A stretch of DNA of 64,000 bases from Tannerella sp. (GTDB taxonomy: Bacteria > Bacteroidota > Bacteroidia > Bacteroidales > Tannerellaceae): assembly GCA_031285565.1 (NCBI GenBank), contig JAITVY010000044.1, positions 1 to 64,000 of the forward strand, given 5' to 3'. The notes beneath the pieces were generated by a model, which had not been told where the DNA came from, made no database searches, and worked only from the letters and a program-made list of their open reading frames with translations. Of this stretch, positions 14,895 through 34,640 are shown piece by piece. A program made the position numbers and the translations under genes. Each line of letters starts with the position of its first letter. Within the stretch, counting starts at the first letter, position 1.

Positions 14895-15836
14895 ATGGAA
14901 ACATACTTAGGCATCGACTTAGGCGGCACAAAATTGTTAATCGGAGAATTAGACTGCAATGGAAATATTTTAAAATATAAAAAATATGACTCCGGTTATT
15001 TCAGCCAGCAAGCAGCATTGGAAATCATCAAAAAATCCCTGGATGATTACATCAAAACAGTAGGTTGGACAGATAGTAAACCTGTCGGAATGGGAGTCGG
15101 TCTGATCGGACGGGTTGATCCCGAACAAGGAATCTGGTTGCAGATAGACCCTTCACGCACCCAGGCGATCCCATTGGCAAAAGAATTATTCGACCTGTAC
15201 GGCATACCTTGTCACATCGATAATGATGTAAAAAGCTCAACACGTGCAGAACGTCATTTCGGATTTGGACAAATATCCAAAAACTTCATATATATAAATG
15301 TAGGAACCGGGATTGCTGCCGGATTTGTCGTTAATGGAAGACAAATTCGCGGAAGTCATTACAATGCCGGTGAAGTAGGTCATACACAAGTAGGTGTAAA
15401 CATAGGTATACGATGCGGATGTGGCCGGATGGATTGTGTCGAACAAATTGCAGCCGGAATCGGATACGACAGTTGTGCACGGTTGCTACAACCAAAATTT
15501 GAAACAAATCTTCACATACCTGATGAACCCGGCAACCGGGTCAGTATTTCTGAAGTTTTTGAATTGAGTAAAAAAGGTGATCCGTTATGTGTGGAACTAG
15601 TCGAAAATGCATCACAAGCGCTTGCTAATCTTATCATGAATTTAGTAAGAGTCAGCGATCCCGACACCGTTGTACTGGGAGGTGGAATCGTTTCTGATGG
15701 TTATATACACACGAAAGTACTGGAGAAACTGAATGCTAACACCATACGTTTTGTAAAGAACGGCGTGGTTATTACCAAGCTGAATCCTGACTTTATTGGT
15801 CTGATGGGAGCTGGCGCTGTGGCGATGAACGTGTAG
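14895..15836 (+). CDS. ROK family sugar kinase (glucokinase / N-acetylglucosamine or glucosamine kinase)
   Basis: A cytoplasmic 313-residue ATP-dependent hexose kinase. The N-terminal phosphate loop reads GIDLGGTKLLIGE (residues 5-17); GTGIAAGFVVNG follows near 140. The substrate and zinc region is complete: GEVGHTQV (about 161) and the ROK zinc motif Cys174-Gly-Cys176-Gly-Arg-Met-Asp-Cys181-Val-Glu. ROK enzymes phosphorylate glucose, GlcNAc, ManNAc or related sugars at O6. With a NagB-like deaminase and a GlcNAc-type transporter directly downstream, GlcNAc or GlcN is the most likely substrate. It is the first gene of the amino-sugar locus; 191 nt separate it from nagB. Confidence 0.88.
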   Translation: METYLGIDLGGTKLLIGELDCNGNILKYKKYDSGYFSQQAALEIIKKSLDDYIKTVGWTDSKPVGMGVGLIGRVDPEQGIWLQIDPSRTQAIPLAKELFDLYGIPCHIDNDVKSSTRAERHFGFGQISKNFIYINVGTGIAAGFVVNGRQIRGSHYNAGEVGHTQVGVNIGIRCGCGRMDCVEQIAAGIGYDSCARLLQPKFETNLHIPDEPGNRVSISEVFELSKKGDPLCVELVENASQALANLIMNLVRVSDPDTVVLGGGIVSDGYIHTKVLEKLNANTIRFVKNGVVITKLNPDFIGLMGAGAVAMNV

Positions 15837-16027: not shown

Positions 16028-16753
16028 ATGAAAATTACAATAGCAAAAAACGAAACAGAATTTGACAGCATAGCCGCATGGCGGATAATCAGTGAAATAC
16101 TTAATAATCCGAAAGCTGTGATTGGGTTATCAACCGGTAAAACAACCAAAAACATACATCTCAATGTCAGCCGGATATATAAACACGATCCTTTCGACAT
16201 ATCAGGTATTACAATTTTCGGAGTGGATGAAGTAACAAATGTACCACGCGAATACGCAGGAGCCTGCTACACCATGCTAAAAACGGAAATCGTTTATGCC
16301 CTGGGTATTCCTGAACATAATTTTATTATGCCTCCCACTTATTCGGATGATTTTGACAAAGAAGCACTGCTATTTCAACAAGCATTGGAAGCAAGAGGTG
16401 GTATCGACCTGCAAATGTTGGGGCTTGGTACAAACGGACACCTGGGTTTTAATCAGCCGGGTACACCGTTTGAGAGTAATACATGGCATTCCAATATGGA
16501 CAATGAATTGGAAATACGGATACGGAAAGAAACTAATACTCCTCCGGATATTAAATTAGGAGGCCTTACATTAGGTATTAAAAACATCATGCAGGCACGT
16601 AAAATAGTTATGGTTGCCAAAGGAGAAAGTAAATCTGAAATTGTAAAAAAAATGTTGCATGGACCTGTAACAACAGCAGTCCCGGCTTCCGTCTTACAAC
16701 TTCATCCCAACTGTGAATTCATACTGGATACCGAATCGGCAAAATTACTTTAA
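16028..16753 (+). CDS. nagB: NagB-like glucosamine-6-phosphate deaminase
   Basis: A 241-residue cytoplasmic deaminase/isomerase of the NagB family, which converts glucosamine-6-phosphate to fructose-6-phosphate and ammonia. Visible motifs: phosphate loop GLSTGKTTKN (about 38), the Val-Asp-Glu-Val active-site segment (about 67), and LGLGTNGHLGFNQPGTPF (about 131-148). In the well-studied enzymes the last motif ends Gly-Phe-Asn-Glu-Pro. Here the Glu is Gln143 (codon CAG, 16454-16456), so a residue of the ring-opening His/Glu relay is changed. It may still work, prefer another amino-sugar phosphate, or be weak. It lies between the ROK kinase and a GlcNAc-type transporter. Confidence 0.85.
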   Translation: MKITIAKNETEFDSIAAWRIISEILNNPKAVIGLSTGKTTKNIHLNVSRIYKHDPFDISGITIFGVDEVTNVPREYAGACYTMLKTEIVYALGIPEHNFIMPPTYSDDFDKEALLFQQALEARGGIDLQMLGLGTNGHLGFNQPGTPFESNTWHSNMDNELEIRIRKETNTPPDIKLGGLTLGIKNIMQARKIVMVAKGESKSEIVKKMLHGPVTTAVPASVLQLHPNCEFILDTESAKLL

Positions 16754-16758
16754 ATGAG

Positions 16759-16885: not shown

Positions 16886-18208
16886 ATGACACAACAAGAA
16901 AAACAAGTAAATTATGTCGGGCCTTTTATTACAATGGTCTTCTTATTTTTCATTGTAGGCTTTTTGACTACAGTAAATACTCAATTTCAAGGCCCACTGA
17001 AAGAAGCATTTCTGGCAGGGGTTGGCGATCTGAAAAATACATTTGCTACGTTAATCACCTTTTCCTGGTTTCTGGCTTATCCATTATGCGGAGGTATCGG
17101 TTCCAAATGGACAACCAGGTACGGATACAAAGGAACACTGATTCGTTCACTATTCATCATGATTATGGGATTGGGATTCTTTTTTCTTTCATCCTGGTTC
17201 ACCGTTCAGTTTCCGGATGCAAACCTGACACTGGGTTCTAATCTTGTTCCCGCCGGCTTTTTTATATTCCTATTAGGTTCATTTGTGGTAGGGGCATCCG
17301 CAACCATTTTACAGGTAGTAATTAACCCGTACCTGACAGCCTGTTATGTAAAAGGAACACAACCCATTCAACGTCTGGCAATCGGAGGATCTGCTAATTC
17401 AATCGGAACAACAATTGCTCCTTTCTTTGTGACCGGCATCGTGTTCGGAGGATTAGCCATGGAAGACGTACAAGTTAGTCAACTAATGATCCCATTTCTG
17501 TCACTGATGGCCATAATTGGACTGGTTGTAATCATATTGCTTAGACTCTCACTACCCGATATCCAAGGCACAAAAGCAGATGTCGGTGAAAAACTCGAGA
17601 AGAGTGTTTGGTCATTTAGTCACCTGACATTAGGCGTCATTGCCATTTTCTTTTATGTAGGCGTAGAAGTGTGTATCGGTGCAAATATCAACTTATACGC
17701 CATTGAACAGGAAGCTGCAAATGGGGCTTTCTCATTCTTCGGTAACAGTTCGCTAACATTATTCGGCATTAACTTCGCCATCCCTGCATTAATGGCAACC
17801 TTATACTGGGGCGGAATGCTGATCGGACGTCTGGTAGGTAGTTCACTAAGCACTGTTCCTCCACGTACACAATTGGTTGTAACAACCGTAAGCGCCACAA
17901 TACTTACATTACTGGCTATCACCTTTAATAATCCCTGGTTATTAACAGCAGTCGGTTTATTTCATTCCATTATGTGGGGAGCGATCTTTACACTGTCTGT
18001 TGCAAAACTTGGAAAATACACCTCTGTAGCTTCAGGTGTCTTTATGATCGGAGTGGTTGGTGGAGCCATACTACCATTATTACAAGGTATGATTGCAGAT
18101 GCAATAGACGGATGGCGATGGTCGTGGTTTATTGTGATCTTCGGTGAATTATTCATGTTATATTATGCATTGATCGGTTCCCGGATTAAACAATCGTCCG
18201 AATTATGA
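16886..18208 (+). CDS. nagP: Sugar MFS transporter, FucP/NagP (FHS) family
   Basis: A 440-residue inner-membrane sugar:H+ symporter with about 12 membrane helices. The N-terminal segment FFIVGFLTTVNTQFQGPLKE matches the FHS-family pattern (W/V-G-F-x-T-x-x-N-x-x-F/L-x-P-x-L-K). Conserved loops include the Tyr-Pro-Leu-Cys-Gly-Gly region near 72, QVVINPYLTA near 148, NSIGTTIAPFF near 173 and YWGGMLIGRLVGS near 310. Its place between nagB, the ROK kinase and GH18/GH20 genes points to GlcNAc or GlcN as cargo, as for NagP. Fucose or glucose cannot be excluded from sequence alone. Confidence 0.87.
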   Translation: MTQQEKQVNYVGPFITMVFLFFIVGFLTTVNTQFQGPLKEAFLAGVGDLKNTFATLITFSWFLAYPLCGGIGSKWTTRYGYKGTLIRSLFIMIMGLGFFFLSSWFTVQFPDANLTLGSNLVPAGFFIFLLGSFVVGASATILQVVINPYLTACYVKGTQPIQRLAIGGSANSIGTTIAPFFVTGIVFGGLAMEDVQVSQLMIPFLSLMAIIGLVVIILLRLSLPDIQGTKADVGEKLEKSVWSFSHLTLGVIAIFFYVGVEVCIGANINLYAIEQEAANGAFSFFGNSSLTLFGINFAIPALMATLYWGGMLIGRLVGSSLSTVPPRTQLVVTTVSATILTLLAITFNNPWLLTAVGLFHSIMWGAIFTLSVAKLGKYTSVASGVFMIGVVGGAILPLLQGMIADAIDGWRWSWFIVIFGELFMLYYALIGSRIKQSSEL

Positions 18209-18423: not shown

Positions 18424-18903
18424 ATGAAACACATATTAATAGCCTTATTGCTTCTTACGGTGACTTTACAGTCCTGGTCGCAACAATACAAGGTCAGCGC
18501 TCAACGGACATGGGATAAATATCCGCCCGAAGCACAGGAACGAGGCTTCGGATTATACGCATCCCAGCTTGTTCAGATGGACGATGATCCGCAACAGGAA
18601 GAAGTGATGCTGTTCAGCGCTCATAACGGACACTATCCCTACTTTGATTTGTTTAAAAACTATTATGTTATCATTGATAATTACACAAAAACAATCAAGT
18701 ATAAATCAGACATAGTTATTTCAACACAACGCGATATACTTCTTGAAGATCGTAACAATGATGGAATATTTGAACTGTATCGCTCGTATTTTCTAGACGG
18801 AAAGTTTTCCGTAGATGAATTTGGTAATAATCTCAAAACAACATGGGTCTATGATTGCATTGAATGGAGCGAATCCGAAAAGAATATTAGAAAAAACAAA
18901 TAG
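18424..18903 (+). CDS. Small secreted protein of unknown function
   Basis: I chose the second ATG (18424), because it places a clean signal peptide at the N-terminus (MKHILIALLLLTVTLQSWSQQ, cut near residue 20). The first ATG, 27 nt upstream, would put polar residues before it. The mature part (about 139 residues) is soluble and rich in aromatic and acidic residues, with YKVSAQRTWDKYPPEAQERG near its start and a Tyr/Asp-rich middle including an Asp-Arg-Asn-Asn-Asp-Gly segment that could bind calcium. I do not recognise the family. It overlaps nothing and ends 4 nt before the GH18 start, so the two are probably translated together. Confidence 0.7.
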   Translation: MKHILIALLLLTVTLQSWSQQYKVSAQRTWDKYPPEAQERGFGLYASQLVQMDDDPQQEEVMLFSAHNGHYPYFDLFKNYYVIIDNYTKTIKYKSDIVISTQRDILLEDRNNDGIFELYRSYFLDGKFSVDEFGNNLKTTWVYDCIEWSESEKNIRKNK

Positions 18904-18907
18904 GAAA

Positions 18908-19939
18908 ATGAAAAATTCACTTTATATATCAACCTTAGTTTTACTAACCGGACTATTTGCGTGTTCCGGAAATAAATCCAAACAACCGGAAACAGGAATG
19001 GTACAAGCAAAAGTAATTGTAGCCTACGTTACTTCATGGAGCCAGACTATACCTGAACCGGCCTATATGACGCATATAAACTATGCATTCGGACATGTGA
19101 ACGACACATTTAACGGCATACGTATTGACAATGAGGAAAGGTTAAAACAAATCGTTGCATTAAAAGAGCAACATCCATCATTGAAAATATTACTCTCCAT
19201 AGGAGGTTGGGGAAGCGGCCGGTTCAGTGAAATGGCTGCTGACGAACAATACAGGGAACAATTTGCGGAAGATTGTTTGCGGGTCGTGAACGACTTTCAG
19301 TTAGATGGGATCGATATTGATTGGGAATATCCCACCAGCTCATTAGCCGAGATTTCCTCATCACCGGATGATACGAACAATTTTACACTTCTAATGAAAG
19401 ATATTCGCGAGTCGATCGGAAAAGATAAACTTCTGACTTTGGCTTCTGCCGCATCTGCTGAATTTATCAACTTTAAAGCTATTGATCCGTATATTGATTT
19501 TGTAAATATTATGGCATACGATATGGCCTCTGCCCCACTTCATCATTCTGCATTGTATAAATCAGAAAACAGTGGTGAAAATACATCACACGATGCCGTC
19601 AGCAAACATCATTCAAATGGAGTTCCATACCATAAGCTCGTATTAGGTATGCCTTTTTATGGACGGGGAGGAAAAGGAGGAATATCCAGTTTTATCGATT
19701 ACAAAGAAATAGAACAATTATCGGGTTATGAAATGCAATGGGATGGAGAAGCGCAGGTTCCTTACCTGACCGATTCAACAGGTACATTCGTCTGCGGATA
19801 TGAAAACCCGCGTTCGCTAACTATCAAATGCCAATATATAAAAGAAAATGCATTATTAGGTGCAATGTATTGGGATTATGATGGCGATAACGAAACCGGA
19901 GATTTACGGAAGGCAGTTTATGAAACAATTATGAAATAG
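18908..19939 (+). CDS. GH18 chitinase-type glycoside hydrolase, lipoprotein
   Basis: A 343-residue GH18 enzyme. Start ATG 18908 gives a lipoprotein signal ending LFAC (Cys18-19 region); a longer upstream frame overlaps the previous gene and spoils the signal. The TIM barrel carries LKILLSIGGWGSG (about 95), the catalytic DxxDxDxE as Asp133-Gly-Ile-Asp-Ile-Asp-Trp-Glu140, Met-Ala-Tyr-Asp near 203, and a late MYWDYDGD. The DWEYP form is that of chitinases rather than of endo-beta-N-acetylglucosaminidases. It probably cuts chitin or chito-oligosaccharides at the cell surface. No separate binding domain is present, so long crystalline chitin is a less likely substrate. Confidence 0.92.
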   Translation: MKNSLYISTLVLLTGLFACSGNKSKQPETGMVQAKVIVAYVTSWSQTIPEPAYMTHINYAFGHVNDTFNGIRIDNEERLKQIVALKEQHPSLKILLSIGGWGSGRFSEMAADEQYREQFAEDCLRVVNDFQLDGIDIDWEYPTSSLAEISSSPDDTNNFTLLMKDIRESIGKDKLLTLASAASAEFINFKAIDPYIDFVNIMAYDMASAPLHHSALYKSENSGENTSHDAVSKHHSNGVPYHKLVLGMPFYGRGGKGGISSFIDYKEIEQLSGYEMQWDGEAQVPYLTDSTGTFVCGYENPRSLTIKCQYIKENALLGAMYWDYDGDNETGDLRKAVYETIMK

Positions 19940-20007: not shown

Positions 20008-20934
20008 ATGAAAACAATACTCAAAATAACAATCCTATGTTTTCTAAGCCTGGCAATGATCCCTGAAATCGACGCTCAACAGAAAATTAAAACAATGATT
20101 GTCACCGGACAAGATGGAAGTCATTGGTGGAAGGGAGGAAGTGAAGCCATAAAAATGATACTCGAAAACAGCAATCTGTTTTCGGTTGATATCCTTATCA
20201 CTCCGGATTGGAATGAAGACATTAGCGGCTTTAATCCCGATTTCAAAAAATACGACCTGGTAGTTATCAACTACGGAGGTACAACCTGGGCAGAAGCTGC
20301 ACGCAGTAAATTGGAACAATTTGTTTCCGGAGGCGGAGGAGTTGTTGTAGTACATTCATCCGTTGTGGGTATGGATAACTGGAAAGGATATAACGAAATG
20401 ATCGGACTGGGGGCCTGGAATGGACGAAACGAAAAAGACGGTCCTTATGTATATTGGCATAATGACCAATTTGTTTATGACTATTCTCCCGGTTGGGCTG
20501 GTTACCATGGCCTGCAGCACTCTTCAACCATCATACACCGGAATCCGGAACATCCAATATTAAAAGGATTACCGGAAGAATGGCTACATTTTAAAGATGA
20601 AATCTATGCACGTTTAAGAGGACCTGCCCGAAACATGGACATTCTGGCAACTACCTACGAAGTTCCGGAAGATGGTCGTGAAGGACGCCATGAACCGATC
20701 CTCTGGACAGTCAAATATGGAAAAGGAAATGTCTTTGTCACACTATTAGGCCATGCAGGCAATGATCCCGAACTACGTTATGCAATGGAATGTACCGGAT
20801 TTCAGGTTACTTTATTACGTGGAGCCGAATGGGTGGCCACCGGAAAAGTAACCCAAGAAGCTCCGAAAGATTTTCCTAATAAAGGAATCAACACGTTGCG
20901 GAAAGAATTTAAAGCACCGTTTAATGCATTCTGA
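20008..20934 (+). CDS. ThuA-like (class I amidotransferase-fold) secreted protein, copy 1
   Basis: A 308-residue protein with a signal peptide (cut near IDAQQ, about 24) and one ThuA/trehalose-utilisation domain (about 28-275). Motifs: MIVTGQDGSHWW, YDLVVINYGG, GGGGVVVVHSSVVG, EHPILKGLPEEWLHFKDEIY, and a C-terminal VFVTLLGHAG ... GFQVTLLRGAEW. The Gly-His-Ala-Gly and aromatic/His-rich pockets are as in ThuA proteins, whose chemistry is poorly known, though some lie in keto-sugar pathways. It is very similar in its C-terminal third to the protein at 62302-63216 (shared GFQVTLLRGAEW and ATGKVTQ motifs). It sits between GH18 and GH9. Confidence 0.85.
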   Translation: MKTILKITILCFLSLAMIPEIDAQQKIKTMIVTGQDGSHWWKGGSEAIKMILENSNLFSVDILITPDWNEDISGFNPDFKKYDLVVINYGGTTWAEAARSKLEQFVSGGGGVVVVHSSVVGMDNWKGYNEMIGLGAWNGRNEKDGPYVYWHNDQFVYDYSPGWAGYHGLQHSSTIIHRNPEHPILKGLPEEWLHFKDEIYARLRGPARNMDILATTYEVPEDGREGRHEPILWTVKYGKGNVFVTLLGHAGNDPELRYAMECTGFQVTLLRGAEWVATGKVTQEAPKDFPNKGINTLRKEFKAPFNAF

Positions 20935-21396: not shown

Positions 21397-23850
21397 ATGA
21401 ACAAAACAACATCCCTCATAACATTACTACTTGTAACAAACACCCTGTTTGCACAACTGCAAATAACACAAGACACCGCACTGAATCAGGACCTGATTAG
21501 AACCGGACTGATTCATAGCCCATTGCCTCTTGATGCATCCAAATCATTCGAAGCCAACAACTGGCAAAAAAAAGTGCTGTATAATCAATATCTATATGAT
21601 GGCAAAAACATAACAGACTGGCAACATGCCGGATTGGGCAAAATTGATTTTTCTGCCGACCAAACTATTAGTGGTAAACAAAGTCTGAAAATAGAGTTCC
21701 CGACTCATACCGGGAAAAGAGCACAGGGATCTCCCTCCGACCCCGATTATGCAACATATGGCAACATTCGTACAACCTATCCACTGCAAGGTGAGAACTG
21801 GGAAAAATATAACCGAATCGAATTTTATATCTACCCCGATTGTGAAGGGGCACGTGTAGTAAATCTAAACTTTTCATTCGAAAATGAAAATAAATCCGGT
21901 AAAGAAGGACGCCACTCTGCCTCTCATTTAATTAACCTTGTCAATCGCCAATGGAACCGTTGTTTCTTCGAATTAGGCGAATATAACCGGGACAATGTAA
22001 AGAGTATAGGATTTAATTGCACCGTCAAAGGAAAAGACCGTACCTCCGGTGATGTTTCCATATACTATATCGATCAGATAGAATTGCAGCAAATCGAAGA
22101 TCCCGACATTGTAAGTGGATGGGCACCAGGTGAAAACCGGATTGTATATTCCACGACCGGCTATATGTTGAATGATCATAAGACCGCAATTGCTAATTTT
22201 CAAAACAAAAATGTTACTCATTTCGAACTGATTGACCAGAAAACCGGACAAATCGTCTTTACCGGAGATATTAAGGTTCAAAAAACAACGATCGGTAATT
22301 TTCAGGTACTGGATTTTACTGCATTCAATCAACCAGGCGGATATAAAATTAAGGCTGACAACATAGAAACACCGGCTTTTCAGATTGGTGAAAATATCTG
22401 GGATAATTCCTTATGGCGTGTATTGAATTTTATATTTTGCCAACGTTGCGGTTATCCCGTACCCGGAAAGCACGGTACATGCCACACCGACCTTTGCGCA
22501 GAACATAACGGGGTAAAAATATCATACGGAGGAGGTTGGCACGATGCAGGAGATTTATCGCAGCAAACACTTCAGACCGGAGATGTAACGTTTTCGCTGT
22601 TGGAAGCTTATAACAAACTGAAAAATCAAAATCCGTTACTGGCTGCGCGATTACTGGAAGAAGCCGAATGGGGATTGGAATTTATACTGCGAACCCGCTT
22701 CGGGGATGGTTACAGGGCAAGTAGCGTTGGGCTACTGATCTGGTTAGACGGTATGTTCAACACATTAGACGACATCTCTACCGTACGCAAACAAAACCTG
22801 TCATTCAATAACTTCCTGTATGCCGGATATGAAGCATATGCTGCTATGACAATTGACCGCGACCCAATGCTACAGGAACATCTGCAACGGATCGCCAAAG
22901 AAGATTTTAAATTTGCCATGCAACGGCATAAAGAAGTAGGCTATGGAGAGTTCCTTCATTTCTATGAGCATGGATACAACACTTCCGAAAGCCAATACAT
23001 GGCCACCATATCCTGGGCTGCCAGTATGCTTTATAAGCTTACGCAGGAACAACAGTATGCTGACATAGCAGCGGAATATATCCGCTTCACACTCGATTGC
23101 CAGCGTAAAGAACCTTTAGGAGATACTAATAAGACCCGCGGCTTTTTCTACCGCGACAAATCCCGGCAATCCATCGTACATTACATCCACCAGTCACGCG
23201 AACAGGTGTATATGCAAGCCATGACCTTACTTTGTGAAACTCAACCCAAACATTCCGATTATGAAAAGTGGTCGGAATCTATTCGATTATACGGAGACTA
23301 TCTGAAAGGACTCATGCAATATACGGCTCCTTATGGTATGCTGTCAAGTGGAGTATATCATATAAATGAATATCAGGATTCTGTCAGTTTTTACCGGCTA
23401 CACCTCTTTCCACCCGAAAATGCGAAAGAATTGTACACCGAACAAGTAAAAAAAGGCGTCAAATTAGATAAAGAACATTATTTGAAACGCTTCCCGGTCT
23501 GGTTCAGCATCTTTAATGGGAATACTGCGATTCACCTCTCGACTGGGAAAGCAGCCGCGATATGCGGAAAATTTCTGAATGATGAAACATTATTGAGCAT
23601 CGGACGTGAACAGATGTACTGGACGGTAGGAAAAAATCCTTTCGGACAATCTCTTATCTATGGTGAAGGTCATAATTACCCGCAGATGGATAGTTTTTCT
23701 TCCGGCGAAATGGTTGGCGAAATGCCGGTAGGCATCCGCAGCCTTGATAACGAAGATACCCCCTACTGGCCGCAAACCAATAATGCCTGCTACAAAGAAG
23801 TATGGGTCACATCGGCCGGGAAATGGATTTCGCTGGCAGTTGAATACTAA
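21397..23850 (+). CDS. GH9 family glycoside hydrolase with N-terminal accessory domains
   Basis: An 817-residue secreted enzyme with a short signal peptide (cut near LFAQ, residue 20). Residues about 35-235 form a beta-sandwich (carbohydrate-binding-like, ending QIELQQIEDPD). A CelD_N Ig-like domain follows (about 245-335, from GENRIVYSTTGYMLND). The GH9 (alpha/alpha)6 barrel takes the rest: Trp-His-Asp383-Ala-Gly-Asp386 supplies the base, and Glu801 in CYKEVW is the acid at the expected C-terminal place. Classic GH9 enzymes are endoglucanases, but some in chitin loci are exo-beta-glucosaminidases. Its place between GH18, GH20 and GlcNAc genes makes the latter, or a chito-oligosaccharide activity, plausible. 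Confidence 0.9.
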   Translation: MNKTTSLITLLLVTNTLFAQLQITQDTALNQDLIRTGLIHSPLPLDASKSFEANNWQKKVLYNQYLYDGKNITDWQHAGLGKIDFSADQTISGKQSLKIEFPTHTGKRAQGSPSDPDYATYGNIRTTYPLQGENWEKYNRIEFYIYPDCEGARVVNLNFSFENENKSGKEGRHSASHLINLVNRQWNRCFFELGEYNRDNVKSIGFNCTVKGKDRTSGDVSIYYIDQIELQQIEDPDIVSGWAPGENRIVYSTTGYMLNDHKTAIANFQNKNVTHFELIDQKTGQIVFTGDIKVQKTTIGNFQVLDFTAFNQPGGYKIKADNIETPAFQIGENIWDNSLWRVLNFIFCQRCGYPVPGKHGTCHTDLCAEHNGVKISYGGGWHDAGDLSQQTLQTGDVTFSLLEAYNKLKNQNPLLAARLLEEAEWGLEFILRTRFGDGYRASSVGLLIWLDGMFNTLDDISTVRKQNLSFNNFLYAGYEAYAAMTIDRDPMLQEHLQRIAKEDFKFAMQRHKEVGYGEFLHFYEHGYNTSESQYMATISWAASMLYKLTQEQQYADIAAEYIRFTLDCQRKEPLGDTNKTRGFFYRDKSRQSIVHYIHQSREQVYMQAMTLLCETQPKHSDYEKWSESIRLYGDYLKGLMQYTAPYGMLSSGVYHINEYQDSVSFYRLHLFPPENAKELYTEQVKKGVKLDKEHYLKRFPVWFSIFNGNTAIHLSTGKAAAICGKFLNDETLLSIGREQMYWTVGKNPFGQSLIYGEGHNYPQMDSFSSGEMVGEMPVGIRSLDNEDTPYWPQTNNACYKEVWVTSAGKWISLAVEY

Positions 23851-24033: not shown

Positions 24034-24069
24034 TGAAAAAATAGCACCCTAATAATGTCTTTGTCATTC

Positions 24070-24142: not shown

Positions 24143-24230
24143 CTGAAAGAACGTAAACATCATTCATAATTGAATATTTTATACTTGCAGTCACATAGAC
24201 GACAAATTAAACACAATATCTGTAATATCA

Positions 24231-27200
24231 ATGCCCATGAAAAAAAGAGACATAAACCAATTTAAAACAAATACTATGAGAGTTATTTTATCTTCATTGT
24301 TAGTAATGCTATGCTGCTTCAAGGCTTTTGGACAACAAGGTCCATTGTCATTAGCAGGAGTAGTATACGATCACCTAGGAGAAACAGTACCAGGTGTGAA
24401 TGTGTATATAAAAAGTAATCCGTCGGTAGGTACTGTCACTGATATTGACGGCAACTTTAAGCTTCAAGCAACTCTGGGAGATGTATTGGTGTTTGCATTT
24501 ATCGGATATGAAAACATTGAACATCCGGTAACAAAGAGTGAACCCAACCTGGCTATCCGTTTTAGTGAATCATCCCAACTATTGGATGAAGTAATCGTGG
24601 TAGGCTATGGCGTACAAAAGAAAAGTGTACTTTCGTCTGCCGTAAGCCGCGTCACTAGCGAAGAACTGGACCGGGGTAATCCGACCAATGTACAAAATGC
24701 ATTGAAAGGAAAAGTTTCAGGCGTACAGATCACATCTAATTCCGGACAGCCGGGTACGGATTCTAAAATCCGTATTCGTGGAACAGGAACGGTTAACGAC
24801 TCCAATCCTTTGTATATCATAGATGGGATGCCTCTTATAGAAACACCATCTAATGATGGAAAATCTTCAACAGGAGGAATCAATCACCTCAATCCATCGG
24901 ATATCGAATCGATCGAAATCCTGAAAGATGCTGCTTCGGCTGCTATCTACGGGGCACGCGGCGCCAATGGTGTTGTACTGGTAACAACTAAAAAAGGGAA
25001 ACAAGGAAAAGCCAGTGTTAATTATGAATTCACCTATGGCATACAAAATCCGGCTAAAAAAATCGGATTACTCAATAGTCAGGAATACCAGATGCTAATG
25101 AATGAAATGGCAGCTAACTCCGGAAAAGAACCTTACTTCCCAACGGCATCATCTGTTGATACCGATTGGCAAAAAGAATTGACTAACAGCAACTCACCGA
25201 TTATCAATCATAAAGTATCAGTTAGCGGAGGTGGAGAAAGTTCTACGTATTATGCCTCTTTCGGATATCTCAAACAGGAAGGTATTTATGCCAAAGGACA
25301 TTCCGATTATGAACGCTATAACATGCGCCTGAATTACAATAACGTATTGTTTGAGTCTAAAGAACGCAACTGGCTTAATAAAGTATCTTTCGGAGCAATC
25401 GTTAGTTATTCCAAGACTATAAAAACAGGAAACGATATATCCAATAGCGAAGCCAGCGGTCTGATTGCTTCTATAAATATGCTTCCGCCCACCGAGTCCG
25501 TATACCAGACCGACCTGGCTACATTAGCCCAGTACGAATCGCTTTATCCCAACTACGTAAAGTCTCCCGACGGACAAGTATACAATATTATTGACATGCG
25601 TGAAATCAATAATCCGTTGGCCAGGTTACAGGTAGAACATAACCAAAGAAGAGTTCCGCAGACATTCGGGACTAACTTTAATTTAGACATGATTCTATTA
25701 CCCGGTCTGAGTTTCAAAACGACTTACGGTATGGATTGGGTTTTCAATTCTATCAAAAACGTGATCCCGGTATATGAACTGAACTCCACATCTAAAAATG
25801 CGACCTCACGGGTTGAAGATGAGAAAACCGAATCTCAATATTGGCAATGGGAAAACATCTTATCCTACAATAAGTCATTCAATTTACATAACCTGGGTGT
25901 ATTGGTAGGTACAACCATGTCTTCTTACCATTATTCCAACATAAAAGCCAAAGATTATGATTTATTAGTGGTTGATATTGATAAAGGATACATCGATTCG
26001 GCTACGGCTCCAGAAGATAAGTCTGAAGTTGCGGGAGGAGCAAGCGATCATCGTATAGCATCTGTCTTTGGCCGTTTAAACTACAATTATGACGAAAAAT
26101 ATCTATTGGAAGCAGTAATAAGACGTGACGGTTCTTCTAATTTCGGGAGGAACAATCAATATGCTGTTTTCCCATCCGTATCCGCTGGTTGGGTGTTGAC
26201 ACGCGAAAACTTTATGGAGAACAAACCATCCTGGTTCGACTTTGCAAAAATCCGTTTCAGTTGGGGACAAAACGGGAACGAACGGATCGGAGCCTTTGCT
26301 TATACTAGTATGATGACAAAAAACGGTCTAAGTGCAGTAGAGGCTGGTAAAGTTTATACAGGTATGAAACCTAAAGGATACGCCAATGTAGACCTGAAAT
26401 GGGAAACATCCGAACAAACGGATATGGGACTTGATCTCCGTTTCTTAAATAATGCGTTGTCACTCTCTGCCGATTATTTTATCAAGAAAACCAAAGACAT
26501 GTTATTAAATATGCCTATACCTATGTACACAGGTTATGGTACCATGACAGTCAATCAGGGAACTGTTGAAAACAAAGGGATTGAATTTGAAGCTTCTTAC
26601 CGTTTCAAAACCGGACAAGTAAATTGGGGGATTGGCGGAAATGCTTCATATGTAAAGAATACCGTAACCAATCAGGGACCTGACAGGATCGGGCTGAACA
26701 GCATCGGTGGCGGTATGGGAGGACAAGTAAGTTATAGCGAAAACGGACGTCCTTACGGCTTCTTCTATGGATATGTGCACGATGGTATCTTCCAGAATTG
26801 GGACGAGATAAATAGTTACGTAACAGAAAACGGTTCGCTGAAACAGCCCAACGCAAAACCCGGTGATGTCCGTTTTAAAGACCTGGATGGCGTAGACGGA
26901 ATCAACAGCGACGACCGTACTATGATCGGGGATCCTAATCCGGATTGGACATTTGGGTTTAACCTGAGTGCAGACTGGAAAAACTTTGACTTCAGCGCAT
27001 TCTTCCAGGGTACGCAAGGAAATGATATCTACAAATTATACAGACGCTCGAATGTAACATATGGAAACTGGGATGAATCATGGTTAAACCGTTGGTACGG
27101 AGAAGGTACATCCAACTGGATGCCACGTCTGGTCGAAGGCGATCCCAACAACAACACAAACTGGGTGTCAAGTTTTTATGTAGAAGATGGTTCCTACCTG

Positions 27201-27416
27201 CGACTTAAAGTAGCACAGTTAGGATACACTTTCCCGAAGAGATTGTTAAACAAAATATATGTCAACAATTTCCGCATATTTGTACAGGCTGAAAACCTGT
27301 TCACCATTACCGACTATAGCGGATATGATCCTGAAGTGGGTACACGCGATGGTTTCGACGGAGGAACATACCCACAGGCACGTACATATACGATTGGAGC
27401 AAATATTACATTCTAG
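24231..27416 (+). CDS. SusC-like TonB-dependent outer-membrane transporter
   Basis: A 1061-residue outer-membrane beta-barrel that imports oligosaccharides with its SusD partner. Order: signal region (1-35, hydrophobic core MRVILSSLLVMLCCF, cut after FGQ), a carboxypeptidase-regulatory-like Ig fold (about 38-112), a TonB-box-like segment and plug (LDEVIVVGYGVQKK near 118, plug to about 255 with DPxxxESIEILKDAASAAIYG-type signature), then the 22-strand barrel to a C-terminal Phe. ATG 24231 was kept as start because a basic KKRDINQFKTNT leader is typical of this family; the ATG at 24276 would leave the bare hydrophobic signal. SusD follows after 44 nt. Confidence 0.96.
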   Translation: MPMKKRDINQFKTNTMRVILSSLLVMLCCFKAFGQQGPLSLAGVVYDHLGETVPGVNVYIKSNPSVGTVTDIDGNFKLQATLGDVLVFAFIGYENIEHPVTKSEPNLAIRFSESSQLLDEVIVVGYGVQKKSVLSSAVSRVTSEELDRGNPTNVQNALKGKVSGVQITSNSGQPGTDSKIRIRGTGTVNDSNPLYIIDGMPLIETPSNDGKSSTGGINHLNPSDIESIEILKDAASAAIYGARGANGVVLVTTKKGKQGKASVNYEFTYGIQNPAKKIGLLNSQEYQMLMNEMAANSGKEPYFPTASSVDTDWQKELTNSNSPIINHKVSVSGGGESSTYYASFGYLKQEGIYAKGHSDYERYNMRLNYNNVLFESKERNWLNKVSFGAIVSYSKTIKTGNDISNSEASGLIASINMLPPTESVYQTDLATLAQYESLYPNYVKSPDGQVYNIIDMREINNPLARLQVEHNQRRVPQTFGTNFNLDMILLPGLSFKTTYGMDWVFNSIKNVIPVYELNSTSKNATSRVEDEKTESQYWQWENILSYNKSFNLHNLGVLVGTTMSSYHYSNIKAKDYDLLVVDIDKGYIDSATAPEDKSEVAGGASDHRIASVFGRLNYNYDEKYLLEAVIRRDGSSNFGRNNQYAVFPSVSAGWVLTRENFMENKPSWFDFAKIRFSWGQNGNERIGAFAYTSMMTKNGLSAVEAGKVYTGMKPKGYANVDLKWETSEQTDMGLDLRFLNNALSLSADYFIKKTKDMLLNMPIPMYTGYGTMTVNQGTVENKGIEFEASYRFKTGQVNWGIGGNASYVKNTVTNQGPDRIGLNSIGGGMGGQVSYSENGRPYGFFYGYVHDGIFQNWDEINSYVTENGSLKQPNAKPGDVRFKDLDGVDGINSDDRTMIGDPNPDWTFGFNLSADWKNFDFSAFFQGTQGNDIYKLYRRSNVTYGNWDESWLNRWYGEGTSNWMPRLVEGDPNNNTNWVSSFYVEDGSYLRLKVAQLGYTFPKRLLNKIYVNNFRIFVQAENLFTITDYSGYDPEVGTRDGFDGGTYPQARTYTIGANITF

Positions 27417-27445
27417 TTGAAAATTGAAAATTGAAAGTTGAAAAT
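27417..27445. repeat. TTGAAAATTGAAA-type tandem in the susC-susD gap
   Basis: Directly after the susC stop come three to four tandem copies of an 8-10 nt unit (GTTGAAAATTG / AAAGTTG). The same motif, with an inverted partner, is found after susD (29023-29097). It may be a slippage-prone spacer repeat. Confidence 0.5.
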
Positions 27446-27460
27446 TAAAGAGAAAAACAT

Positions 27461-29020
27461 ATGAAAAAGATATTCATTATAATAGCAATCTGCTGTACCG
27501 GTTTATTTTCCGGATGTAGCGATTTTCTGGAAACAAATCCAAGGACAGACGTAGCAGAAACAGAATTTTACAAAACTGAAAGTGATATGATGATGGGATT
27601 ATATGCCATCATGAATGAAGTGCAGGTTCGTATTATGGAAGTATGGTCTTACTCGTCTTTACTATCCGACGAATCCGAAACCGGTGGTGGTATTGGTGAA
27701 GGTTCTTATAAAACCAAGTGGGATACTTTCTCATTTGATGCAACAACTTGTTTTGGTTATTGGGGATATGGTTCCTGGTGGAACGAATGGGATTATGGTG
27801 TATACCACGGAGTCATAGCCTCCAACATCCTGATCGATAAACTTGCCGATTGCGACTTAAGTGAAAGTTTTGTAAATGCAATCGATGCAGAAGCACGTTT
27901 CTATCGTGCATTATTTTACAATCACCTTTTTATGGGATACGAACAATTCCCGTTGATTAAAGGAACACTGCTTGCCAGCGAAATGTATACCGTTCCTAAA
28001 GGTACCCGCCAGGAAATCTATGAATTTATGATGAGCGACCTGGATGATGAAATAACCCAATATCTTCCGGTCAGAAGCGCAACACCACAGGGTCGTATCT
28101 GTCGTGATGCTGCAAAACTTCTGCGTGCAAAAATCATATTATTCCACCGGGACGAAAGCAAATATCAACTGGCACTCAACGATATGAAAGAAATCATTAA
28201 CAGCGGTAGATATTCCCTGAATCCGAACTACCTGAATCTATGGGTGAAAGCCGGAGAATGGGGATCAGAATCTATTTATGAGGTTGCCTTTGCCGGCGAC
28301 AATTCGGGCGAAGGAAACAGCCTGGGACGCTCTTTAGGCGGACGTGATATCAATGACCCAAGAAGCGCCGAACAAGGAGGATTGGAAGAAGGATACGGAC
28401 AAAACACCATGCCAAGTACCATCTATAATATGTTCAAACCGGGAGATACGCGCCGCGAAGGTACTGTAATCGTATATGCTGATGAAAAAAACAAGGTGGA
28501 TGAGTTAGTGAAAAACGGTGATCTTCCCGAAGGTAGCGCATTCGTAATGAGTGAAAAACAGGAAAACTTCGAAGGACTGGGACATTATAAATATCACCCC
28601 AGAAAAGAAACCTCTTCAAGCGTTAATCCGTTATCCAATTACTCTTTCTCATACCGTTTCTATCGCTATGCAGATGTATTGTTGTTAGCCACGGAGTTAG
28701 AAGCACGTACCACCGGAACAGTTAGCGCCGAAGGACAAGGATGGTTCAATCAAATCAGGGATCGCGCTTTCAAAAACCAGGAAAACTGGATCACTTTAAG
28801 CGGAAAAGGCAAACAGGAAATACTCGATATCATTTTCGAAGAAAGAGGCTATGAGTTTATCGATGAGATGCAGCGTTGGTTCGATATATTGCGTTTCGAT
28901 AAGGGAACTGAAATTTTAGGAAGCAAAGGATGGACTGAAAAATACAGGTATTTCCCGATCGACCAATCGGAAATGGATCGTGCAAACGGACATCTAACCC
29001 AAAATCCGGGATGGCTATAA
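27461..29020 (+). CDS. SusD-like (RagB/SusD) glycan-binding outer-membrane lipoprotein
   Basis: A 519-residue surface lipoprotein that forms the lid of the SusC transporter and binds the glycan. The lipobox is LFSGC, with the Cys near residue 19, followed by the family start SDFLETNPRTD. The TPR-rich core (about 60-250, with AEARFYRALFYNHLF) and the C-terminal SusD domain (from about 330; FRYADVLLLATELEAR-like segment and EERGYEFIDEMQRWFDILRF) are intact. The Trp/Gly-rich region around 80-115 (FGYWGYGSWWNEWDYG) is unusually aromatic and probably lies in or near the binding site. It is coupled to susC upstream and followed by three ThuA-like genes. Confidence 0.95.
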   Translation: MKKIFIIIAICCTGLFSGCSDFLETNPRTDVAETEFYKTESDMMMGLYAIMNEVQVRIMEVWSYSSLLSDESETGGGIGEGSYKTKWDTFSFDATTCFGYWGYGSWWNEWDYGVYHGVIASNILIDKLADCDLSESFVNAIDAEARFYRALFYNHLFMGYEQFPLIKGTLLASEMYTVPKGTRQEIYEFMMSDLDDEITQYLPVRSATPQGRICRDAAKLLRAKIILFHRDESKYQLALNDMKEIINSGRYSLNPNYLNLWVKAGEWGSESIYEVAFAGDNSGEGNSLGRSLGGRDINDPRSAEQGGLEEGYGQNTMPSTIYNMFKPGDTRREGTVIVYADEKNKVDELVKNGDLPEGSAFVMSEKQENFEGLGHYKYHPRKETSSSVNPLSNYSFSYRFYRYADVLLLATELEARTTGTVSAEGQGWFNQIRDRAFKNQENWITLSGKGKQEILDIIFEERGYEFIDEMQRWFDILRFDKGTEILGSKGWTEKYRYFPIDQSEMDRANGHLTQNPGWL

Positions 29021-29022
29021 TT

Positions 29023-29097
29023 AGTTGAAAATTGAAAGTGGAAAGGCTGGTATGGGTATTTCTTTCATTTTCAACTTTCAATTTTCAATTTTCAACT
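29023..29097. terminator. Hairpin between susD and the ThuA-like genes
   Basis: TTGAAAATTGAAAGT (29025-29039) and ACTTTCAATTTTCAA (29074-29088) form a perfect 15-bp inverted repeat, and the second arm is followed by a further TTTTCAACT. It begins 5 nt after the susD stop. It could attenuate transcription between the abundant SusCD part and the downstream enzymes or protect the 3' end. No clean T-run follows. Confidence 0.5.
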
Positions 29098-29143
29098 ATT
29101 TTCCATATCATTGCAAAAAGAAAACCTAAAAACACATAATCCA

Positions 29144-29929: not shown

Positions 29930-29965
29930 TTTTCAACTCTCCATTTTTAATTAATAGATTATCCC

Positions 29966-30787: not shown

Positions 30788-30807
30788 ATTATAAAGTATG
30801 AATTATA

Positions 30808-31545: not shown

Positions 31546-31689
31546 ATATAGCTTGAAACAAGTTTTGATGATGTTTCTCACGTATACAGAGATATTAGCA
31601 TCAATCATGTTGTGTCATCAGGCTGGCACAAGATTGCCACACCGGTGGCACTGATGTGGCATAATAATGGCATTGATATCTCATTTCTT

Positions 31690-31848
31690 TTAATCATACC
31701 CAGGTCCCGCATAATATACATTTATAATCGCGATCAGATTTCCATAACATACAGCAATGCTATCTTTTTGAGCCGGAATAAATTTCGCCAAGCTTAAAAT
31801 ACGATATCCAGCCGATTCCTTTATGCGATCAGCCAGACAAATGTCCAT
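31690..31848 (-). CDS. Unidentified 52-codon frame, possibly a gene remnant
   Basis: An ATG-started minus-strand frame of 52 residues whose composition looks protein-like (MDICLADRIKESAGYRILSL at its start, a Tyr-Tyr-Ala-Gly-Pro-Gly-Tyr end). It lacks a recognisable domain, promoter or ribosome site. It may be a fragment of a longer lost gene, or chance. I do not assign a function. Confidence 0.2.
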   Translation of the reverse strand: MDICLADRIKESAGYRILSLAKFIPAQKDSIAVCYGNLIAIINVYYAGPGYD

Positions 31849-32097
31849 AATAATAAAATAGTTTTTTCTTCACTCGTACTTTATTGTTAAGTTCATAGAG
31901 CTAAAAAAAAATCTTACAATTATTAAGCAGCGTATCGTAAATAAAGTTATGCTAAATATCCCATTGGATAATCTGAAAAGCATCTTCCCGACAAAAAAGA
32001 GTGTATCAATCCGATAAGTATAATAACAATCCAACCTTTTTTGTCTGTATTTAAACTTCAATTCCTCTTTTTATCTGTAATATTGCATTCACAGGAA

Positions 32098-32299
32098 CTT
32101 AGAAACTGTTTAAATTTTAGCAATAGGTATTTATAGATACAATTTACGAATATCTTTGCTATTTGTTTTGGCTCTTTTGGGCATATTTTTCACTTTTTCC
32201 TCTTGATTTAGCCCGCTAAATCTGCAAGTAAAAATCAAAAAATATATCCCAAAATAACTCAAAACAAGATTTGCAATAAAATTTAAACAGTCTCTTAGA
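32098..32299. mobile_element. MITE-like palindromic element, about 200 bp
   Basis: Terminal inverted repeats ACTGTTTAAATTTTA (32105-32119) and its exact complement (32277-32291) enclose a second long imperfect palindrome (about 32162-32210 with 32217-32270) around a GCCCGC loop, plus an inner pair TAGCAA/TTGCTA. The 6-mer CTTAGA lies directly outside both ends (32098-32103 and 32294-32299) and could be a target-site duplication. It has no coding capacity. It ends 13 nt before the GH20 start codon. Confidence 0.7.
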
Positions 32300-32312
32300 A
32301 AAAGATAAAAAC

Positions 32313-33416
32313 ATGAAACACAAACTTACTTTCTTCACATTTCTGTTCATATGGCAGGCTATTGCGGTATGTGCACAAGACAACAGGCAACCCATCGATT
32401 CTGTATTGCCTGTACGCGGCCTTGCAATTGCAGCGCCTTCAGTAAAACAAATGGACTTGTTCCTCAAATTTATTGAAGAAGAACTGGCTCCGGCTCATTT
32501 CAACCTGCTCATCCTGCGGGTTGACTGGAATTACGCATACGAATGCCACCCGGAATTGAGGGATCCGGATCCATTAACCCAATCCGATGTAAAAAAGCTT
32601 GTTTCTACCTGCCGGAAGCATGGTATCCAATTAGCGCCCCAGATTAACTTACTGGGACACCAATCGTGGGCGGAAACAACATATGCCTTACTTCGCGAGT
32701 ATCCCCAATTTGATGAAACACCACATGTAGATACAAAAAATTATACGGGTTGGCCTAATCCAGACGCATTATATTGTAAAAGTTACTGTCCGCTTCATCC
32801 GGATGTTCATAAGATCGTATTTGCACTGGTTGATGAATTAACGGATGTTTTCGAAACCAAACTTTTCCATGCCGGAATGGACGAAGTTTTTTATATTGGT
32901 GACGACAAGTGCCCACGTTGCAGTGGCCGCGACAAAGCAGAATTATATGCAGGCGAAGTAACCAAAATTCAAAATCATTTAGCAGAAAAAGGCAAGCGGC
33001 TGATGATCTGGGGCGATCGCCTGATTGATGGAAAAACAACTGGAATGGGCATGTGGGAAGCCAGCATGAACAACACATACCGCGCTATAGATATGATACC
33101 CAAAGAGGTTTTTATCTGCGATTGGCATTATGAACGTCCGGACCAGACTGCCGTCTATTTTGCAATGAAAGGCTTTGATGTAGCAACCTGCCCCTGGCGC
33201 AAACCGGAAATTGCATCAACCCAGTTAGAGGATATGCTTCGCTTCCGGAAAAATGCTACACCAGAGATGCAAAAACGGTATCAGGGGATTATTGCTACCG
33301 TTTGGTCAGGTGCAGACAATTTCCTGAAGAATTATTATGATCCGGAACTTAACTCTAAAACCGAATCGGATGCACTGACATTGAAAAAATTAATGAAAGA
33401 GTACAAGGAGTTATAA
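32313..33416 (+). CDS. GH20 beta-N-acetylhexosaminidase-like catalytic protein
   Basis: A 367-residue periplasmic enzyme with a signal peptide (about 22 residues, cut after VCAQ). It contains only the GH20 TIM barrel, without the usual N-terminal GH20b domain. The signature His186-Ala-Gly-Met-Asp190-Glu191 supplies the catalytic acid Glu and the Asp that orients the substrate N-acetyl group. GH20 enzymes cut terminal GlcNAc or GalNAc with help from the 2-acetamido group, so a free amine is not cleaved. A Cys-x-x-Cys pair (KCPRC, near 198) is unusual. The stop codon lies 3 nt before the NagX-like gene, so the two are strongly coupled. Confidence 0.85.
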   Translation: MKHKLTFFTFLFIWQAIAVCAQDNRQPIDSVLPVRGLAIAAPSVKQMDLFLKFIEEELAPAHFNLLILRVDWNYAYECHPELRDPDPLTQSDVKKLVSTCRKHGIQLAPQINLLGHQSWAETTYALLREYPQFDETPHVDTKNYTGWPNPDALYCKSYCPLHPDVHKIVFALVDELTDVFETKLFHAGMDEVFYIGDDKCPRCSGRDKAELYAGEVTKIQNHLAEKGKRLMIWGDRLIDGKTTGMGMWEASMNNTYRAIDMIPKEVFICDWHYERPDQTAVYFAMKGFDVATCPWRKPEIASTQLEDMLRFRKNATPEMQKRYQGIIATVWSGADNFLKNYYDPELNSKTESDALTLKKLMKEYKEL

Positions 33417-33419
33417 ATT

Positions 33420-34640
33420 ATGAAACCAACAACTGACTTTACGCAACGTAATGTTGCCATTGATATCCTCCGGGCATTAACCATGTTGTTAATGATCTTC
33501 GTAAATGACCTATGGACAATCTCCGGTTATCCGGAATGGTTAGGACATGCAACCCGTGATCAGGATATGTTAGGACTAGCCGATATTGTCTTTCCCTGTT
33601 TTCTCTTTGTTGTAGGGATGTCTATACCTTTCGCTATTGAACGACGATTCAGTAAAGAACTCTCCGGCGTAAGTACTGTCGGACATATCCTGACTCGTTC
33701 ATTAGCGCTTCTATTAATGGGTGTTTTCATTGTGAATACGGAATCCGGAGTATCCCCGGCAACAGGTTTTACGATGGCGACCTACCGGATACTTATGGTT
33801 GCAGGATTCTTATTAGTATGGAATGTATACCCACGCAGTGAGAACCCTAATATGAACCGGCTTTATACAGCATTGAAAGGATTAGGTATACTCATACTTA
33901 TTTATTTAGCTATCATCTTTCGTGATGCCGAAGGTGGTGTCTTCCAGGCCCGCTGGTGGGGAATTCTGGGACTAATCGGTTGGACATACTTAATCTGTGC
34001 ACTCATTTACGTGTTTACCCGCGACCGCTTGAAATACCTCATACCTATCTGGATTATATTTGTAGTATTATGCATCTTAAAAAGTACGATGCGCGATGGT
34101 AACGTGATATTAGATTTACCACACGGCAACTTTCTTGATGAATTCCTTAACATTCTACATGTAGGGAAAGGCGCTTTACCCGCTTTTACTATGGGGGGTA
34201 TTATTCTTTCATTGGTTGCAACTAAATATACCCATGTGAATAACAACAGGAAAATACTGTTTGCCATATCATCTGTCGCTTTATTATTGATCGCCGGATT
34301 TATATCTCATCAGTTCTGGATTGTATCCAAACTACAGGATACTCCACCCTGGATATTCTTCTGCACGGCGATCGCTATCGGGACATACGCAATTATTTAC
34401 TGGCTAACAGAAAAGGGAAAAGCCCATTGGTTCAATATCATCAAAACAGCCGGCACAGCGACATTGACCTGTTACCTGGTTCCTTATGTTACCTATAGCC
34501 TCACTTCCATTATGGGTATTCAGTTACCGGAATGGTTAACAACCGGTTGGATGGGCATTCTGAACTGCATTGCTTATTCATTTATTGCAGTTGGAATTAC
34601 ATGGTTATTAGGAAAGATACATATCAAATTGAAGATTTAA
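33420..34640 (+). CDS. NagX/HGSNAT-like membrane acyltransferase (DUF5009/DUF1624 type)
   Basis: A 406-residue inner-membrane protein with about ten to eleven helices. It opens with the family signature AIDILRALTMLLMIFVND, then a Trp-Leu-Gly-His43-Ala segment and LADIVFPCFLFVVGMSIP with Asp55. The His corresponds in position to the active-site His of heparan-alpha-glucosaminide N-acetyltransferases, which move an acetyl group from cytoplasmic acetyl-CoA through the membrane onto a terminal glucosamine. Bacterial relatives (NagX) often lie in GlcNAc loci with unknown role. It starts 3 nt after the GH20 gene, and a hairpin follows, so it ends the locus. Confidence 0.85.
   Translation: MKPTTDFTQRNVAIDILRALTMLLMIFVNDLWTISGYPEWLGHATRDQDMLGLADIVFPCFLFVVGMSIPFAIERRFSKELSGVSTVGHILTRSLALLLMGVFIVNTESGVSPATGFTMATYRILMVAGFLLVWNVYPRSENPNMNRLYTALKGLGILILIYLAIIFRDAEGGVFQARWWGILGLIGWTYLICALIYVFTRDRLKYLIPIWIIFVVLCILKSTMRDGNVILDLPHGNFLDEFLNILHVGKGALPAFTMGGIILSLVATKYTHVNNNRKILFAISSVALLLIAGFISHQFWIVSKLQDTPPWIFFCTAIAIGTYAIIYWLTEKGKAHWFNIIKTAGTATLTCYLVPYVTYSLTSIMGIQLPEWLTTGWMGILNCIAYSFIAVGITWLLGKIHIKLKI

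Follow-up and report, generated by a model that had tools for sequence, protein, structure and literature searches.

A small GH20 glycosidase gene next to an HGSNAT-family membrane acyltransferase gene in Tannerella: a possible periplasmic acetylate-then-cut pair

Introduction

The lysosomal partner of the membrane acetyltransferase HGSNAT is NAGLU, a glycoside hydrolase family 89 (GH89) enzyme that needs a 2-acetamido group on its substrate. When HGSNAT is assayed with a 4-methylumbelliferyl (MU) glucosaminide, 4-methylumbelliferone (4-MU) is set free by a lysosomal hexosaminidase. The published assay incubates the beta-linked substrate MU-beta-GlcN with cell homogenate and takes released 4-MU as its readout, and human HGSNAT has been solved with this glucosaminide bound (PMC11199644). 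Arg372 of the human enzyme binds the 6-OH of glucosamine (GlcN) and Glu499 its 3-OH, and activity is strongly reduced in mutants of Asn286, His297 and Asp307 (PMC11199644). Acetylation followed by cutting with a GH20 enzyme is thus already in use in an assay; for bacteria it is a proposal. Here we analyse a 64,000-nucleotide stretch of DNA from Tannerella sp., called the window throughout (contig JAITVY010000044.1 of assembly GCA_031285565.1, which has 5.0 Mb and a completeness of 83%), in which the gene for a small GH20 glycosidase, GH20s, is followed by the gene for an HGSNAT-like transmembrane acyltransferase, TmAT. We propose, with a probability of roughly 40%, that the two form a periplasmic module that acetylates and then cuts.

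For the bacterial relative NagX, whose role the original prediction for this locus treated as open, a specific proposal already exists: Price 2022 (PMC9007349) suggests that it acetylates free periplasmic glucosamine. In the fitness data of that study, which cover five bacteria with Caulobacter as a possible exception, NagX is needed on glucosamine and not on N-acetylglucosamine (GlcNAc); the authors also note that it often lies in chitin operons. A structural study of the superfamily groups DUF5009 with HGSNAT and states that the function of no DUF5009 protein has been experimentally confirmed (PMC12423673). A literature search over titles and the starts of abstracts, with subscription journals mostly outside its coverage, gave no bacterial HGSNAT-GH20 pair of this kind among the matches listed; searches on chitosan polysaccharide utilization loci found none, and those on GH9 exo-glucosaminidases gave nothing useful among the matches listed.

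Results

Two adjacent genes

The pair and the putative catalytic codons of TmAT are located as follows.

32313..33416, plus strand: GH20s, small GH20 glycosidase, 367 aa, stop TAA (PF00728)
33420..34640, plus strand: TmAT, transmembrane acyltransferase, 406 aa (PF16401)
33546..33548 (His43), 33504-33506 (N29) and 33582-33584 (D55), plus strand: predicted catalytic codons of TmAT, from alignment with HGSNAT

Three nucleotides separate the GH20s stop from the TmAT start, the spacing given in the original prediction. The fusion by translation that accompanied it is an overstatement: this gap and the presence of two open reading frames (ORFs), both open, rule out a true gene fusion; these are separate genes, translationally coupled at most. 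Both ORFs are supported by their conservation across relatives.

The transmembrane acyltransferase

TmAT matches PF16401 (DUF5009) at 32 bits, against a cut-off of 25; PF07786 (HGSNAT_cat) is absent from its hmmscan list, yet scores 34.4 bits (cut-off 22) in the genome search. When the PDB was searched with the single sequence, human HGSNAT was the sole match (E ~3e-7), and it was again the sole match for a 47-row profile (E 5e-22). The predicted structure points the same way: the model has a predicted local distance difference test score (pLDDT) of 94, HGSNAT accounts for all 15 of its PDB matches by fold at E<=0.001 (TMq 0.59-0.66), and matches to the major facilitator superfamily (MFS) fold are insignificant.

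Residues were counted over 80 sequences (the window protein and 79 relatives) or over the 47-row alignment, which holds the window protein and 46 relatives with 31-71% identity to it. N29, H43 and D55 align with Asn286, His297 and Asp307 of HGSNAT and are invariant in 80/80, which bears out the conserved His43/Asp55 region originally pointed to. Superfamily positions are likewise maintained in the 47 rows, D15 and R18 in 46 (with one gap), R93 in transmembrane helix (TMH) 3 and Y352 in TMH9 in all 47, and the clade keeps the DxxR and FxxxxG positions of the acyltransferase superfamily. When the helices were assigned by hand from the model, 17 loop lysines and arginines fell on the predicted inside and 7 on the outside, a charge bias that would place His43 on the periplasmic side. 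The catalytic machinery is conserved, and acceptor recognition seems to have changed. Membership of the HGSNAT family and fold, as first claimed, stands; the further label of NagX has to be narrowed, as comparison of sequences places TmAT in a sister clade to canonical NagX. Assignment to canonical NagX itself was rejected on a profile alignment in which the clade does not keep the Arg372 and Glu499 positions. The nearest named relatives of TmAT, among the matches listed, come from Bacteroides sp. 519, a Tannerellaceae bacterium and Dysgonomonas alginatilytica, and one genome (G019) carries members of the TmAT and canonical NagX clades side by side.

The small GH20 glycosidase

GH20s matches PF00728 at 53 bits (cut-off 22.3). 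Its model (pLDDT 91.6) is a single domain with the TIM-barrel fold seen in GH20, and an N-terminal signal peptide, read by eye, predicts a periplasmic location. The closest solved proteins are Niako3494 (8bal, 41% identity) and the Treponema denticola structures 9fyl/9fym (33-34%); a literature search on 8bal and 9fym found no paper. An alignment of 33 sequences, the window protein with 32 fetched relatives of 40-73% identity to it, has the Asp-Glu catalytic pair D190-E191 in 33/33, and Trp233, Trp248, Trp331 and Tyr273 are all kept in 33/33. The catalytic residues expected of an enzyme that depends on a 2-acetamido group are kept in GH20s.

Pairing among relatives of TmAT

The best 80 of 565 TmAT relatives among the matches examined were taken for a study of gene neighbourhoods, and the gene was called in 79 (L116 was dropped; L, G and C numbers denote our loci, genomes and contigs). 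GH20s lies within two genes of TmAT in 17/79 loci. In 16 of these it directly precedes TmAT on the same strand, the called gap ranging from -35 to 527 nt with L101 at the upper end; in L070 the two are separated by a GH9 gene. In four loci (L088, L090, L101, L125) GH20s and TmAT form a bare two-gene unit, the neighbour at either end being on the opposite strand. Clustering of neighbours within five genes, with no prior choice of family, returned GH20s as the commonest cluster (17/79), followed by SusC (15) and GH18 (10, named by best match); a classical large GH20 is near TmAT in 1/79 loci. Mapped on a tree with 117 rows (22 of them labelled adjacent; 113 from the clade, 4 outgroups), the adjacency label requires 10 changes, 8 of which are forced by starred branches. 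Chance adjacency of the two genes was rejected on the locus counts, on co-occurrence and on a spacing test.

Other neighbours recur as well. A GHL10 cluster, of which the L064 member was scanned, is near TmAT in 8/79 loci (L064, L068, L070, L071, L073, L074, L106, L120). In Bacteroides gallinarum (L128:7920-9945) a TmAT-clade gene follows genes for mannonate dehydratase (UxuA) and a short-chain dehydrogenase (SDR), neighbours that suggest a uronate-containing glycan. Directly upstream of TmAT in L091, L096 and L104 is a protein of 663-686 aa that matches NagB; three members of this set also match a PIG-L de-N-acetylase, and are probably fusions.

Co-occurrence and pairing at the family level

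GH20s and the TmAT clade are both present in 4/148 genomes of a sample of the order (P 6e-5, with the thresholds for a positive genome set after the lists were seen) and in 4/394 of a second sample (P 1e-3); these are hypergeometric values that ignore relatedness, and the counts leave out the source genome. The genes are adjacent in two of the four genomes of each sample, in the window's order in G007 and G338 and reversed in G064 and G256.

With families counted broadly, HGSNAT_cat is matched in 55/149 genomes of the order (94 matches, some below cut-off), and these 55 hold 142 GH20 matches after split hits were merged. Eleven HGSNAT_cat/GH20 pairs lie within 1.5 kb, in 10/55 genomes, against 0.4 expected by random placement (P 2e-11 without the window pair); the acyltransferase match of the G014 pair is under cut-off. 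The window's type accounts for three of the 11 (the source genome, G007 and G064). In the five fetched loci L208-L212 canonical NagX is the best match of the partner, which has both the Arg and the DPEG motifs and adjoins a GH20 of 833-861 aa, divergently in four loci and on the same strand in L210. GH92 served as a weak control, weak because it was compared by eye among the matches listed: its matches outnumber those of GH20, and one pair within 1.5 kb was seen (source genome, C52).

GH89 occurs in 10/55 genomes. On contig C46 of G109 (L206:4813-8113) a canonical NagX gene with the Arg and DPEG motifs ends 10 nt before a GH89 NAGLU gene, whose start was chosen by hand and whose product has all three NAGLU Pfam domains; 0.05 pairs would be expected within 1.5 kb. 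The arrangement resembles, in a bacterium, the HGSNAT-NAGLU pair of lysosomes. A second NAGLU gene lies nearby, as do genes for a GntP permease and, by eye, a putative glycerate kinase. A candidate second HGSNAT-NAGLU pair in G121 was discarded, its acyltransferase ORF having no phmmer match to NagX or the window protein at 1e-8 and neither the Arg nor the DPEG motif.

The surrounding amino-sugar locus

GH20s and TmAT stand at the end of a plus-strand gene run (14895-34640) that begins with a ROK kinase gene and looks, from its gene content, like a locus for the utilization of chitin or a related amino sugar.

14895..15836, plus strand: ROK-family sugar kinase (phmmer matches to glucokinase and N-acetylmannosamine kinase structures)
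16028..16753, plus strand: NagB-like glucosamine-6-phosphate (GlcN6P) deaminase (PF01182; 2bkv, E 9e-34)
16886..18208, plus strand: MFS sugar permease with a putative NagP-like role (PF07690, 35.1 bits, cut-off 33.4)
18815..19939, plus strand: GH18 chitinase-like lipoprotein (PF00704, 233 bits; best PDB match chitinase 5gzu, E 6e-87)
20008..20934, plus strand: ThuA-domain protein 1 (PF06283)
21397..23850, plus strand: GH9 enzyme, 817 aa (PF00759 and PF02927; weak PDB matches including 5dgq and 3h7l)
24231..27416, plus strand: SusC-like outer-membrane transporter (ORF, labelled by eye)
27461..29020, plus strand: SusD-like glycan-binding lipoprotein (PF07980, PF14322)
29111-29929, 29966-30787 and 30808-31545, plus strand: three ThuA-domain proteins (PF06283 in each)

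The gene set of a chitin locus, namely SusC/D, chitinase, hexosaminidase and GlcN6P deaminase, is found together, with SusC named by eye only. The real start of the GH18 gene is probably downstream of 18815, and its lipoprotein call was made by eye. Elsewhere in the genome, contig C35 encodes NagA (254.9 bits, cut-off 225.65), and of four HGSNAT_cat matches one is a canonical NagX, on C38. Five of the genome's seven ThuA-domain matches fall in the window, four inside the locus and the fifth at ~62392-63120; ThuA genes also adjoin the GH20s/TmAT pair in G064. Farther upstream (4812-11758), GH5 and GH30 genes on the minus strand and a hybrid two-component regulator-like gene, identified by eye, may form a separate glucan cluster.

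An inverted-repeat element resembling a miniature inverted-repeat transposable element (MITE) lies just ahead of the pair.

32098..32298, no strand: MITE-like inverted-repeat element, ~200 bp, 22-nt arms 91% complementary

It ends 14 nt 5' of the GH20s start codon and contains a TAnnTTTG -7-like site at 32151. The source genome has 14 full or partial matches to it, one of them just ahead of another acyltransferase gene (C52), within ~5 nt of its start, and one just ahead of nagA (C35), within 16 nt of its start. A role as shared regulator was set aside, and a MITE is likelier, because further copies occupy unrelated contexts.

Discussion

We propose that TmAT, in the inner membrane, would take acetyl-CoA from the cytoplasm and pass its acetyl group, via the His43-Asp55 dyad and Asn29, to a periplasm-exposed amino sugar on an imported glycan. 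Soluble GH20s, needing a 2-acetamido group, would then cut off the acetylated sugar, and the GlcNAc-type product could enter the kinase/NagA/NagB route. The analyses show the catalytic residues intact in both proteins, the fold of TmAT, its topology by charge bias, the conserved pairing, an amino-sugar gene context and a NagA in the genome; both the placing of the acceptor at a glycan end that feeds GH20s and the identity of its amino sugar are things we infer. The specific partnership with GH20s and the isolated two-gene units favour a substrate shared by the two proteins, and acetylation of GlcN ends by TmAT on behalf of GH20s is plausible. What supports an acetylate-then-cut pair as originally conceived is the conserved pairing, the intact catalytic machinery, the predicted periplasmic side of the histidine and the existence of GH20 and GH89 neighbours in related systems; what counts against it is that residues for substrate recognition look altered in both partners, that one of the two nearest solved relatives of GH20s is called a lacto-N-biosidase and that NagX already has a proposed role.

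Those residues head a series of observations that weigh against our proposal. In profile alignment the positions of HGSNAT Arg372 and Glu499 are occupied in the window protein by R178-WWG and GKG, and over the TmAT clade the Arg372 column is R in 21/80 and the Glu499 column E in 4/80, as compared with 10/10 and 9/10 for the equivalents, the latter within DPEG, in ten canonical NagX proteins from the same order. The Arg372 region of the clade has an invariant Gly after two aromatics (position 179 is W in 78/80, with a gap in 2; position 180 is W in 72 and Y in 8). Loss of HGSNAT's glucosamine-contacting residues is thus strongly hinted at, short of proof since the comparison is a profile alignment and not a superposition of structures. 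GH20s seems to depart from expectation in a similar way. Column 43, placed by hand, should hold the exo-subsite Arg that binds O3/O4 of a terminal GlcNAc, which we take to be Arg162 of the Streptomyces plicatus hexosaminidase; this column is variable, with R in 2/33, so that the usual exo-subsite Arg is apparently missing. R69, which is Arg in 31/33 and in 8bal and Glu in the 9fym chain, might replace it. Moreover, 9fym, to which GH20s is 34% identical, is named a lacto-N-biosidase, a type of GH20 enzyme that releases Gal-beta-1,3-GlcNAc. The genomic association has its own limits. Adjacency clusters strongly on the TmAT tree (0/500 shuffles gave as low a number of changes), so that the 17 loci with GH20s within two genes are not independent. 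There is no GH20s within two genes in 62/79 relatives, some of which sit beside GHL10, UxuA/SDR or other genes. The genes are non-adjacent in 2/4 co-occurring genomes of each sample, and GH20s is found without the TmAT clade in 3/8 genomes of the order sample and 4/9 of the other, source genome included. Finally, a single amino-sugar regulon would produce part of the pairing with no hand-over of substrate.

The altered acceptor site of TmAT argues against a plain NagX function and equally against plain GlcN ends. Since neither partner appears to keep the residues by which terminal GlcN/GlcNAc is usually recognised, we expect an unusual or substituted amino-sugar end rather than a plain chitosan end, and the certainty with which chitosan ends were first named is unsupported. 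A wider version of the proposal is that acetylate-then-cut pairs recur in Bacteroidota, with HGSNAT-family proteins paired with several GH20 types and with at least one GH89, and that the window's clade and its small GH20 represent a specialised offshoot whose two members have jointly moved to another kind of amino-sugar end. We put this forward tentatively, as less likely than not.

Our computations only weakly separate four explanations, among which we rank acetylation followed by cutting first. Its main rival, which we regard as somewhat less likely, is that TmAT acetylates free periplasmic glucosamine, which then passes through a GlcNAc permease, kinase and NagA, and that GH20s merely belongs to the same regulon. 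The ROK kinase, MFS permease and NagB of the locus and the NagA of the genome would suit such a salvage route, and the GH9 enzyme could release GlcN, a specificity known from Vibrio and Photobacterium relatives. The fitness data on NagX in five bacteria (PMC9007349) also speak for salvage; set against them, the GlcN-contacting residues that canonical NagX keeps are those that the TmAT clade lacks, the source genome already has a canonical NagX on C38, and both clades occur side by side in G019. Furthermore, the favoured neighbour is a GH20, expected to release GlcNAc-type sugars and not GlcN, and four two-gene units hold GH20s and TmAT only.

Next in rank, and slightly less likely again, is that TmAT puts the acetyl group on a hydroxyl, or on a different amino sugar, of the glycan, for uptake or recognition and not for cutting, while GH20s acts as a biosidase-type enzyme on a substituted GlcNAc. 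The acceptor-site residues unlike those of HGSNAT, with their invariant Gly and two aromatic positions, are compatible with this, as are the resemblance of GH20s to the 9fym lacto-N-biosidase and the O-acetylation carried out by other superfamily members (PMC12423673). Yet the His-Asp-Asn set of TmAT is that of the N-acetylating HGSNAT, and at the site of the Glu in the 9fym chain GH20s carries R69. Least probable by far is import of the GH20s product by TmAT as a sugar transporter like the N-acetylmuramic acid (MurNAc) transporter Tf_MurT, to which Price 2022 describes NagX as distantly related (PMC9007349) and which, with Tf_MurK, restored growth of an Escherichia coli murP mutant on MurNAc (PMC5790795, citing Ruscitto 2016), for TmAT keeps the N/H/D, DxxR, FxxxxG, TMH3-Arg and TMH9-Tyr residues of the acyltransferase superfamily (as given in PMC12423673), its fold matches are to HGSNAT with those to MFS insignificant, and the locus already has a separate MFS permease.

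If GH20s and TmAT do acetylate and then cut, bacteria would, like lysosomes, re-acetylate sugar ends, here in the periplasm, for acetamido-dependent glycosidases. DUF5009-type membrane proteins would gain a function, the consumption of partly deacetylated amino-sugar glycans would find an explanation, and the Sanfilippo C enzyme would acquire small relatives that could serve as models. With MU-beta-GlcN, the substrate of the published HGSNAT assay, the question can be put to a direct test.

Compared with described systems, the locus shares SusC/D, GH18, GH20, an inner-membrane transporter and GlcN6P deaminase with the chitin locus of Flavobacterium johnsoniae, whose 11 genes, as listed, are without an acetyltransferase, GH9 or ThuA and whose FjGH20 is large and multidomain (PMC7426924). 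GH20s instead has the small single-domain architecture of Niako3494 (8bal) and T. denticola 9fyl/9fym. TmAT scores above the PF16401 cut-off and has the residues of the DUF5009 superfamily (PMC12423673). With bacterial NagX (PF07786) it has in common its family, a place in amino-sugar operons and the proposal that acetyl-CoA from the cytoplasm serves to acetylate an amino sugar in the periplasm; it differs in its sister-clade position, in that NagX keeps the Arg and Glu, and in that the canonical NagX of the same genome is a separate gene. From the human HGSNAT-NAGLU pair the window pair differs in having GH20 in place of GH89, a TmAT without the luminal domain and unconserved Arg372 and Glu499 positions, and the two pairs are alike in their transmembrane fold, their Asn-His-Asp site and a glycosidase partner that needs the 2-acetamido group.

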